Below, piece by piece: positions 39,824 to 42,223 of a stretch of DNA of 64,000 bases (position 1 is its first letter; each line of letters begins with the position of its first letter). Made by a program: the position numbers and the translations under genes. The stretch is from Kitasatospora albolonga (GTDB taxonomy: Bacteria > Actinomycetota > Actinomycetes > Streptomycetales > Streptomycetaceae): NCBI GenBank assembly GCA_002082585.1, contig CP020563.1, positions 2,598,001-2,662,000 on the forward strand. The letters run 5' to 3'. The notes below the pieces were generated by a model that was not told the origin of the DNA, ran no database searches, and saw only the letters and a program-made list of their open reading frames with translations.

Positions 39824-39914
39824 TTGCCAAGGGTTCGCTGCAAAGAAACTGCTGCAAAGCTTGTGTTGCAAAGGTCGAGTTGCAAAAAACCACTTGCAAA
39901 GCACTCTTTGCAAC
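39824..39914. repeat. Seven phased TTGCAA(AG) repeats with exact 14-bp pitch
   Basis: TGCAAAG-like cores begin at 39825, 39839, 39853, 39867, 39881, 39895 and 39909, each 14 bases after the last. The first (TGCCAAG) and last (TGCAACT) are degenerate. The core TTGCAA is itself a palindrome. The array ends 15 bases before the ArsR-type regulator gene and its sixth copy coincides with the -35 box, so it is almost certainly an operator array. Confidence 0.9.
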
Positions 39915-39922
39915 TCTACGGT
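39894..39922 (+). promoter_or_regulatory. Leaderless promoter of the ArsR-type regulator inside the repeat array
   Basis: TTGCAA (39894-39899) as -35, 17-base spacer, TACGGT (39917-39922, TANNNT) as -10, then six bases to the ATG. Transcription would start at the A of the start codon, which fits the absence of a ribosome site. Confidence 0.65.
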
Positions 39923-39928
39923 TGGCGC

Positions 39929-40549
39929 ATGGCAGAGAACGAGCAGGGCGACCGCCCCCACCCCCACGCCGACCGCACCGACCGCAAGATCCACCACGTC
40001 GACGCCCGCGCCTTGCGCGCCATCGCGCATCCGCTGCGGCTCCGACTACTCGACACACTCCGGGAGTTCGGCCCCGCCACCGCCTCCAAGCTCGGCGATC
40101 GGCTCGGCGAGTCCAGCGGCTCGACCAGCTACCACCTGCGCCAGCTCGCGGAGAGCGGGCTGGTGGAGGACGCCCCGGAGCTGGGCAAGGGCCGCGAGCG
40201 CTGGTGGCGGTCGGTGCACCAGGGCTCGACGGTCGAGAGCGCGGACTTCATGACGCACGCCGATCCGGAAGTGCGCGGAGCCATCGAGTTCCTCCTGCAC
40301 GAGACGGCCACCACTCACGCCCGGGACCTCAACACCTGGCTGGGCACGTCGGGCGACTGGCCGGAGGAGTGGCAGCGGAGCTGGGACCTGAGCGACTTCA
40401 AGATCCGCCTCACGCCGGAACTCTCGCTGGAGCTGTCCCACAAGGTCCATGAACTCGTGGAGAGCTACCGGGGCCGGGTCCCGGAGGACACCGAGGGATC
40501 GGCGATGGTCCAGACCCACCTGCACGTCTTCCCGCGCCCTTCCGAATGA
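39929..40549 (+). CDS. ArsR-type winged-helix transcriptional regulator
   Basis: 206 residues. The DNA-binding domain (residues ~25-95) reads ALRAIAHPLRLRLLDTLREFG, TASKLGDRLGESSGSTSYHLRQL and GLVEDAPELGKGRERWW, the HTH_20/ArsR pattern. The C-terminal ~110 residues are a Trp- and Glu-rich helical domain of unknown ligand. No metal-binding Cys set is visible. Followed by a small ORF and an MFS exporter, so it probably controls drug or metabolite efflux and itself through the upstream array. Confidence 0.9.
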   Translation: MAENEQGDRPHPHADRTDRKIHHVDARALRAIAHPLRLRLLDTLREFGPATASKLGDRLGESSGSTSYHLRQLAESGLVEDAPELGKGRERWWRSVHQGSTVESADFMTHADPEVRGAIEFLLHETATTHARDLNTWLGTSGDWPEEWQRSWDLSDFKIRLTPELSLELSHKVHELVESYRGRVPEDTEGSAMVQTHLHVFPRPSE

Positions 40550-40604: not shown

Positions 40605-40793
40605 ATGAACGCCGACATCCACATGCTCCTGCACGCCGACCGTTCCGCCGAACTGCGCCGCGAGGCACGGTCGTTCACCCCGCCCCGGACCGCCCTGCGG
40701 ACCCGCGTCGGCTGGACGATGGTCGAGCTCGGCCTCCGGCTGGCCCGGAGCGGACCGGCGGCGGCCGGTGCCCACACGTTCCGTACCGCCTAG
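40605..40793 (+). CDS. Small basic protein of unknown function between regulator and exporter
   Basis: 62 residues from ATG 40605, with GGAGGGA ten bases upstream. Arg-rich with His-containing start (MNADIHMLLHADRSAELRR); ends with GPAAAGAHTFRTA. No membrane helix. Lies 55 bases after the regulator and 47 before the MFS gene on the same strand, so it belongs to their transcript. No family recognised. Confidence 0.65.
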   Translation: MNADIHMLLHADRSAELRREARSFTPPRTALRTRVGWTMVELGLRLARSGPAAAGAHTFRTA

Positions 40794-40840: not shown

Positions 40841-42223
40841 ATGCACCACCACCACCGCCACCGCCATCGCCTGCCGCTCGCCGCCACGCTCGCGGCCAAC
40901 TCCATTTCCACCGCCGGGACTTCACTCACCCTGATCGGCGTGCCCTGGTTCGTCCTGGAGACCACCGGCAGCGCGGGCCGGGCGGGCGTCGTCGCCTTCT
41001 GCGCCACCCTGCCGATCGTCGTCGCCGCGCTGATCGGCGGACCGTTCATCGACCGGATCGGCCGCCGCAGGACCGCCGTCGTCTCCGACACGGTCTGCGG
41101 CCTCGCCATCGCCGCGATCCCGCTGCTCCACCGGGCGGGCGCCCTGGAGTTCTGGATGCTCTGCGCGCTGATGGCCCTGAACGGCTTCGCCCACACCCCG
41201 GGCAACACCGCCCGGTACGTCCTCATCCCCGATCTCGCGGAGCACGCGGGCACCACGCTCCCCCGGGCCGCCAGCCTCTTCGACGCGGTCTCGCGCGGGG
41301 CCCGGATGGTCGGCGCGGCGCTGGCCGGCATCCTGATCGCCTTCGCCGGGTCGGAGACCGTACTCCTCCTGGACGCGGCCACGTTCGGCCTCTCCGCACT
41401 GCTGGTCGCCGTCGGCGTACGGGGCGTGGGCGCGGCCGAACCGCGCAAGGGCGGGGCACCCGTCTCGCTGCGCACGTACGGCACCGAACTCCGCGAGGGA
41501 TACGCCCACTTGCTGGGCAACCGGCTGCTGCTGGCGATCGTCCTCATGGTGATGCTCATGAACGGCACCGACCAGGGCTGGTACGCCGTCCTGCTCCCGG
41601 TGCACGCCGAGGCCGAGTTGGGCGGAGCGCGGGACATCGGGCTGCTCACCGCGCTGTTCGGGGCGGGCGGACTGGCGGGGGCGCTGCTGTACGGGGCGGT
41701 GGGTCACCGCTTCCCCCGGCGGGCGGTGTTCACGGTGTGCGTGATCCTGTGCGGGGCGCCGCGCTTCCTGGTGGCGGCGGTGACGGGGACGACGCTGCCG
41801 CTCGCGGTGACCATGCTGCTGGGCGGAATCGCGGGCGGGGTGCTGAACCCGATCCTGACGACGGTCATCTACGAGCGCGTACCGGACCGGCTCCGCAGCC
41901 GGGTCTCGGGGGCGCTGACCGCCGGCTGCGAGTTCGCGATGCCGCTGGGCGGACTGGCGGCCGGGCTGCTGGTGGAGGGGACGGGCTCGACGGGGGCGCT
42001 GCTGGCGATGGGCGGGGTGTACTTCCTGGCGACGCTGAGCCCGCTGGTGTTCCCGTCGTGGCGGACGATGGAGGGAGCGGCGGCCTCGGCGGAAGAAGCG
42101 GCGGGCGAGGCGGCGGGCCGGGAAGAGGCAGCGGGCGAGGCGGCGGGCCGGGAACCCGCCGTACCGCCCCCGCCGAAGGGGATCAGCAGCTCGGCACCTT
42201 CCCGCCGCTCTCCAGCGCCTTGA
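40841..42223 (+). CDS. MFS exporter with natural His-rich N-terminus
   Basis: 460 residues, twelve membrane segments; starts MHHHHRHRHRLPL. Motif A is DRIGRRRTAVVSD. The relatives are enterobactin-exporter/macrolide-efflux type MFS proteins. The C-terminal tail is a repeated Ala/Glu/Gly/Arg stretch (EEAAGEAAGR twice) that runs past the stop of the convergent Lon-like gene: the two genes overlap tail to tail by 41 bases. Controlled, by position, by the ArsR-type regulator. Substrate unknown. Confidence 0.88.
   Translation: MHHHHRHRHRLPLAATLAANSISTAGTSLTLIGVPWFVLETTGSAGRAGVVAFCATLPIVVAALIGGPFIDRIGRRRTAVVSDTVCGLAIAAIPLLHRAGALEFWMLCALMALNGFAHTPGNTARYVLIPDLAEHAGTTLPRAASLFDAVSRGARMVGAALAGILIAFAGSETVLLLDAATFGLSALLVAVGVRGVGAAEPRKGGAPVSLRTYGTELREGYAHLLGNRLLLAIVLMVMLMNGTDQGWYAVLLPVHAEAELGGARDIGLLTALFGAGGLAGALLYGAVGHRFPRRAVFTVCVILCGAPRFLVAAVTGTTLPLAVTMLLGGIAGGVLNPILTTVIYERVPDRLRSRVSGALTAGCEFAMPLGGLAAGLLVEGTGSTGALLAMGGVYFLATLSPLVFPSWRTMEGAAASAEEAAGEAAGREEAAGEAAGREPAVPPPPKGISSSAPSRRSPAP

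Follow-up and report, generated by a model that had tools for sequence, protein, structure and literature searches.

Which protein reads a row of seven TTGCAA-like boxes in front of a regulator gene, and in what unit does it read them? The window (the whole 64-kb stretch of DNA analysed) holds such a row, which begins 19 bp past the stop codon of the upstream gene (39805) and ends at the promoter of the regulator. We take the upstream gene to encode the substrate-binding component of an ABC transporter for compatible solutes. We consider it highly probable, judging from comparison of sequences, that the row is the operator ladder of the regulator encoded at 39929-40549, with six overlapping dyads through which the regulator would repress its own expression. 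The features are collected in Table 1.

Table 1. Features of the array, the putative promoter and the predicted operon; positions are those of the window.
Feature	Position	Strand	Sequence or score	Basis
TTGCAA-like array, seven boxes	39824..39913	none		sequence reading and dyad scoring
Box 1	start 39824		TTGCCAAG	read directly
Box 2	start 39838		CTGCAAAG	read directly
Box 3	start 39852		CTGCAAAG	read directly
Box 4	start 39866		TTGCAAAG	read directly
Box 5	start 39880		TTGCAAAA	read directly
Box 6	start 39894		TTGCAAAG	read directly
Box 7	start 39908		TTGCAACT	read directly
Dyad 1, predicted dimer site	39825..39842	none	12.7 bits
Dyad 2, predicted dimer site	39839..39856	none	17.4 bits
Dyad 3, predicted dimer site	39853..39870	none	16.4 bits
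Dyad 4, predicted dimer site	39867..39884	none	12.1 bits
Dyad 5, predicted dimer site	39881..39898	none	17.9 bits
Dyad 6, predicted dimer site	39895..39912	none	26.1 bits, strongest
Putative -35 box (box 6)	39894..39899	+	TTGCAA	sequence; in 172 start-anchored orthologues, 99% have T at -35 and 96% have A at -31
Putative -10 box	39917..39922	+	TACGGT	sequence; T at -12 in 60%, A at -11 in 60%, T at -7 in 87% of 172
ArsR-type (HTH_20/HTH_5) regulator, 206 aa, probably leaderless	39929..40549	+		ORF, domain and fold comparison
62-aa ORF between regulator and exporter	40605..40793	+		kept in Streptomyces orthologue loci, 41/47 and 66/80
MFS exporter	40841..42223	+		MFS_1 above cut-off

The Array in Its Genome

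On direct reading, all six box-to-box steps are exactly 14 bp, as the original prediction had it. That prediction also spoke of seven TTGCAA palindromes; there are seven TTGCAA-like boxes, but only four of them (39866, 39880, 39894 and 39908) are exact, and no other TTGCAA occurs anywhere in the window. The bare count is unremarkable (4 against 2.39 expected, with 4 reached in 17 of 100 shuffles). The remarkable feature of the array is its spacing, not the number of hexamers. Boxes 6 and 7 together make a perfect dyad, TTGCAAAG-CACT-CTTTGCAA, at 39894-39913. When a two-box pattern is searched through the 8.03-Mb genome with at most one mismatch, its seven matches all fall within the array, against three matches for a reversed control pattern. 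Separately, TTGCAAAG occurs 13 times in the 8.03-Mb genome and its reversed string 44 times, so the half-site looks depleted elsewhere in the genome.

Conservation Among Streptomyces Orthologues

An orthologue of the regulator was found at E <= 1e-44 in 212 of the 392 Streptomyces genomes searched. The upstream DNA was read at 107 of these 212 loci and at one partial, weaker relative, giving 108; L022 is counted in although its match is weaker than E <= 1e-44. A second set, partly overlapping the first, consists of 80 named Streptomyces loci, the best 80 of 420 from a single-protein scan and for that reason biased to close relatives; the closest among these best 80 of 420 are Streptomyces of the anulatus/griseus kind. 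The two sets, less L104 (short upstream) and nine duplicates, give 178 distinct upstreams.

The spacing is sustained throughout these sets. When boxes may differ from TTGCAA at one base and distances up to 60 bp are counted, the 108 upstreams show a series of 14 (266), 28 (150), 42 (58) and 56 bp (8), with a minor series at 12-13, 26-27 and 40-41 bp amounting to 77 and no more than 3 at any other distance. Under a half-site model that was derived from the first orthologue set on which it was counted, and is hence partly circular, at least two chained overlapping dyads are present in 176 of the 178 upstreams and at least three in 170. With the same dyad finder, two or more chained dyads appear in none of 890 dinucleotide shuffles of the 178 upstreams and in none of 119 flanks of 700 bp. 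When a single fixed step is imposed, three or more dyads are chained at 14 bp in 145 of the 178 upstreams, at 13 bp in 17, and at every other step from 10 to 20 bp in none. With ties shared out, a test that uses no core at all gives 14 as the best tandem-palindrome offset in ~57 of 107, 34 of 80 and 28 of 69 upstreams; the runner-up, 20 or 21, can be understood as a 13-14-bp step to which the palindrome of the box itself adds an offset of 7 bp. The array is neither chance nor local.

Two aspects vary. One is the pitch. The original prediction named a lack of conserved pitch in orthologous promoters as its refutation, and the opposite is seen, with 366 of their 410 dyad steps measuring 14 bp. 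The pitch is not fixed throughout, however: 41 steps measure 13 bp and 3 measure 12 bp. The other is length. The 178 arrays hold one dyad (2 upstreams), two (6), three (115), four (47), five (7) or six (1), and the single six is the window itself, the longest array scored where the usual number is three; the scored named and distant loci reach five at most.

The Probable Unit Read by One Dimer

The ends of the arrays indicate which stretch of DNA one dimer would read. In 107 loci, the sequence one pitch outward of the leftmost exact box is kept as CAAAGAA at positions 4-10 (68-86%), and at 33%, 74% and 42% at positions 1, 2 and 3. The right end roughly mirrors this, with T, T and G at 97, 78 and 91% and C, A and A at 54, 74 and 7%. 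Taken locus by locus over the 177 distinct loci with an exact box, the inner half of the left end box is better kept than the outer half in 136, tied in 30 and worse in 11, and the corresponding figures for the right end box are 167, 9 and 1. The right end overlaps the promoter, which by itself could cause erosion of the outer half there; the left end is free of the promoter. Since the end boxes keep their inward half, the dimer unit most likely lies between adjacent boxes, as an 18-bp dyad in which TnCAAAGAA is joined to TTCTTTGnA. The seven boxes would then most likely amount to six predicted dimer sites, each internal TTGCAA serving two neighbouring dimers. Each dyad begins 14 bp after the one before it and shares 4 bp (TGCA) with it, and the half-sites of neighbours abut. 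Dyad 6 is the core of the perfect inverted repeat at 39894-39913.

The original prediction instead centred one dimer on each TTGCAA, so that seven dimers would bind. The hexamer is indeed self-complementary and is the best conserved block inside the arrays. However, that placement does not account for end boxes that lose their outward half (136:11 on the left, 167:1 on the right) or for conservation that runs inward past the box through CAAAGAA, and the two helices of a dimer on a 6-bp palindrome would have to sit only ~4-5 bp apart. We regard it as improbable. Binding of monomers head to tail on direct repeats, in the manner of BldC, would make sense of the AAAG that points in one common direction in four of the seven window boxes, but box 7 and the right-hand boxes of the relatives carry the reverse, CTTTGCAA, and the protein is ArsR-type, not MerR-like. 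That arrangement is hardly credible.

Distant Relatives and Other Loci

In a set of 246 genomes from the class, a search with an alignment of relatives as the query found a family member at E <= 1e-25 in 109. The distant set that was read comprises 69 loci, 68 of them distinct, in 33 genera, and some are Streptomyces paralogues. L143 duplicates L023; both are within the counts of 69, and they enter once in the repeat-lag and helix-core counts. L026, at 45% identity and with no array seen, was kept out.

Even under the Streptomyces model, at least two dyads are found in 58 of the 69 distant loci, with steps of 14 bp (87), 13 bp (2) and 15 bp (1), and 32 of the 69 have just two dyads, 14 bp apart. 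The core-free three-unit repeat lag in the 68 distinct loci is 14 in ~39 and 13 in ~9. Among the 11 exceptions, L157, L160, L172, L194 and L199 have 13-bp lattices, while L029 and L188 have 14-bp lattices with other cores. No array was recognised before the regulator at L183, L186, L025 and L066 of the 69, nor at L026. A search at the level of the phylum, for which 17 of 24 rows were read (the other 7 being same-class or already seen loci), gave without a shuffle control a sole best lag of 14 bp in 7 loci and 13 bp in 4; 12 of the 17 come from outside the class, and 14 bp is found in 6 of those. As read from these sequences, the spacing recurs before related putative repressors in many actinobacteria, partly with other cores. 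Against plasmids, BLAST identified 36 matching records with identities of 60-80%; in each of them the match spans less than 80% of the query.

Some further loci deserve description in their own right. Boxes every 13 bp before the regulator are seen at L157, L160, L170, L172, L177, L194 and L199, mostly with GTGCA or TGCAGA cores. In the window's own genome, the stretch at L284 ~1501-1520 (G000:C1:4418491-4418510) holds a single perfect dyad, TTGCAAGC-N4-GCTTGCAA, which occurs once in that genome and, among the matches listed, in many of 101 Streptomyces genomes. Its box distance is that of the window, but it stands single, with no array, ~30 bp upstream of a helix-turn-helix gene that is presumably of XRE type. 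At L064 ~1000-1026 (G000:C1:4011599-4011625), a pair of CTTTGCAAAG boxes at a distance of 17 bp precedes another relative of the regulator, located at 4011688, and the 23-bp element there is also present in G036, G080 and G114, among the matches listed.

The Regulator and Its Recognition Helix

The regulator matches the HTH_5 and HTH_20 domains above the curated cut-off and has the ArsR fold with extra C-terminal helices. It scores 44.9 against the NCBIfam metalloregulator model NF033788, below the cut-off of 55, and the DtxR/MntR family is not listed for it in the Pfam scan. It has no cysteine, nor have 45 of 49 aligned proteins, several of which are partial.

Differences in the core go with differences in the recognition helix of the adjacent protein. 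Mostly CAGAG half-sites are found at 5 of 5 loci with SWHL-type helices, against 4 of 130 with SYHL-type helices. GTAS-type helices go with a C at position 1 of at least one half-site in 6 of 6 loci, against 11 of 117 for ATS-type helices, and with a G at position 4 of at least one half-site in 6 of 6, against 5 of 117. Fisher P values for these associations are 3e-6 or less with shared ancestry ignored, and the associations were first noticed and then counted on the same data. Excluded from the counts are 20 loci whose arrays are weak and 91 whose helix could not be read. Some CAAAG half-sites are present at the SWHL loci as well. A search of 197 genomes for more relatives of the SWHL type yielded two loci. 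At L025, an array with the matching SWHL-type core precedes the next gene, 637 bp after the regulator start. L157 is a counterexample: it has the common GATSYHLRQL helix, yet a TGCATAG core and a 13-bp lattice.

Since core changes go with recognition-helix changes, the adjacent ArsR-type regulator is pointed to as the binder. The array might alternatively serve some other protein or function, such as a global regulator or a nucleoprotein complex of the origin or partition type, and iterated arrays do occur at centromeres, according to the review PMC5016525. We hold this to be very improbable, given how the core tracks the helix of the adjacent protein. The pattern is also present only once in the genome, and a paralogue in the same genome (L065; G000:C1:6257786-6258340, minus strand) has a 14-bp array of its own with a different core, CGC(A/G)AAG, and an MFS gene downstream; it is possibly an insulated second system. 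An origin or nucleoprotein switch, of which the original prediction called iterated arrays more typical, is unneeded: in 176 of the 178 Streptomyces upstreams the array sits at the promoter of the regulator itself.

The Putative Promoter and the Predicted Operon

The original prediction placed the -35 box at box 6 and the ATG six bases after the -10 box, with the array overlapping a leaderless promoter. This agrees with our putative promoter, which has a 17-bp spacer and the ATG at the expected start site, and whose -35 and -10 positions are conserved in relatives (Table 1). In the 176 upstreams with at least two dyads, the start codon follows the last dyad by 16-17 bp in 121, by 2-3 bp in 50 and by 4 bp in 1, and it was not found in the searched range in 4. 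An automatic sigma-70 scan reported no promoter at its threshold, so the evidence for the putative promoter is its position and its conservation among relatives. The conserved positions are compatible with box 6 as the -35 box, a spacer of 17 bp and transcription beginning at the ATG, and the regulator transcript is probably leaderless. In the same stretch, a terminator-like hit on the minus strand at 39913-39894, the only such hit of the scan, consists of the operator dyad followed by a T-run; it was rejected as a terminator because the bases between the boxes differ freely among 23 near relatives.

Downstream of the regulator follow a 62-aa ORF, which matched no NCBIfam model, and an MFS exporter, for which the best NCBIfam rows, the H+ antiporter TIGR00900 and Tap, are below their cut-offs. 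Among loci of more than 2,500 bp, a same-strand downstream MFS gene similar to that of the window is present in 36 of 47, 56 of 80 and 20 of 29; in one more named locus the MFS gene lies upstream, on the opposite strand. The small ORF, present downstream at the Streptomyces loci as given in Table 1, is found at 0 of 29 distant loci of more than 2,500 bp. The most likely role of the array, as read from this arrangement, is autorepression of an operon in which regulator, small ORF and MFS exporter would be co-transcribed.

A Proposed Mechanism

In the mechanism that we propose, each repressor dimer would read one 18-bp dyad spanning two neighbouring TTGCAA boxes. Dyads 5 and 6 cover the -35 box and the spacer of the putative promoter; repressor bound there would exclude RNA polymerase, and would silence the small ORF and the MFS exporter downstream along with the regulator's own transcript. 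The upstream dyads would lend cooperative support to the promoter-proximal dimers, the degree of cooperativity depending on the number of dyads. A ligand would release the repressor; this ligand is probably not a cysteine-bound metal.

With 10.5 bp per turn, a 14-bp step amounts to 4/3 of a turn; as a matter of arithmetic only, neighbours would be rotated by ~120 degrees, and the same face would recur with every third dimer, at 42 bp. Simultaneous occupancy of adjacent dyads is possible, and so is a helical filament of dimers. Since 13-bp steps are tolerated, any dimer-dimer contact would not be rigid. The dyads might alternatively form a multi-register operator, only every other one being filled at a time and the alternative registers serving to raise the local concentration of repressor. 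Such an arrangement would suit the 4-bp overlap of the dyads, the abutting half-sites of neighbours and the tolerance of 13-bp steps (41 of 410), which goes against a rigid contact between dimers. Nevertheless, the 32 of 69 distant loci that have just two dyads 14 bp apart would make little sense if only one of the two were usable, and IdeR is described in PMC8464063 as placing two dimers on one overlapping site. We consider the multi-register arrangement unlikely, though it keeps an appreciable share of our expectation.

The reading in which adjacent dyads are occupied together can be extended to the whole family. It would hold that dimers of ArsR-type exporter repressors, in a subfamily widespread among actinobacteria, assemble into cooperative spirals on lattices of overlapping dyads at a fixed 14-bp (~120 degrees) step, with two to six rungs acting as an evolvable dial for the strength of repression and the switching threshold, and that the window holds the longest spiral scored. 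We put this forward tentatively, as a proposition that may well be wrong.

Relation to Known Systems

Metalloregulators of the ArsR/SmtB family generally have operators of one or two separate palindromes. The regulator of the window shares with CzrA, CadC and SmtB the fold of the DNA-binding domain and the predicted role of repressing a resistance or efflux operon (PMC4486848). It differs in being a protein of 206 aa without cysteine, with extra C-terminal helices and a lattice of overlapping dyads.

MntR binds at Bacillus subtilis mneP to a row of 18-bp sites, each made of two 9-bp inverted repeats; there are four sites over 84 bp, with cooperative dimer-dimer contacts, and the result is activation (PMC11275975). 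The likeness would be in several winged-helix dimers on a row of sites before an exporter gene, with one site over the -35 box. The differences are that MntR activates, that its spacing is wider than 14 bp and that it belongs to another protein family; cooperativity in the window is predicted. IdeR/DtxR binds a 19-bp site of interleaved repeats, with dimers on repeats 1+3 and 2+4, is activated by iron and normally places two dimers (PMC8464063). There, two winged-helix dimers share an overlapping site from different faces of the helix, as we would predict from sequence for the window, whereas the window dyads are in line and number up to six and are not interleaved.

BldC of Streptomyces is MerR-like and binds head to tail on 9-bp direct repeats (PMC5859096). 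Its sites resemble the present arrays as those of a Streptomyces regulator whose length varies with the number of repeats, but the window has two-fold dyads at a 14-bp step and an ArsR-type protein, and relatives have opposed half-sites at both ends of the array. TubR, a small winged-helix dimer, binds the iterated repeats of tubC upstream of its own operon, forms a helical filament and is also a repressor (PMC5016525). The winged-helix dimer on iterated repeats before its own operon would be common to both systems; tubC, however, is a plasmid centromere working with TubZ, whereas the window has an exporter operon (small ORF and MFS gene) and the filament there is hypothetical. Our search of the literature, which covered few subscription journals, recognised no description of this lattice operator and found no study of a large set of exporter regulators with such operators.

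The arrays follow a conserved operator grammar of 9-bp half-sites, dyads overlapping by 4 bp, a 14-bp period, mostly two to six rungs and fixed promoter phasing, so targets and binding specificities should be predictable from sequence. The natural length variants would be a ready series on how operator copy number tunes cooperativity, and the window array and that of the paralogue L065, with its different core, would be a natural pair for testing specificity.
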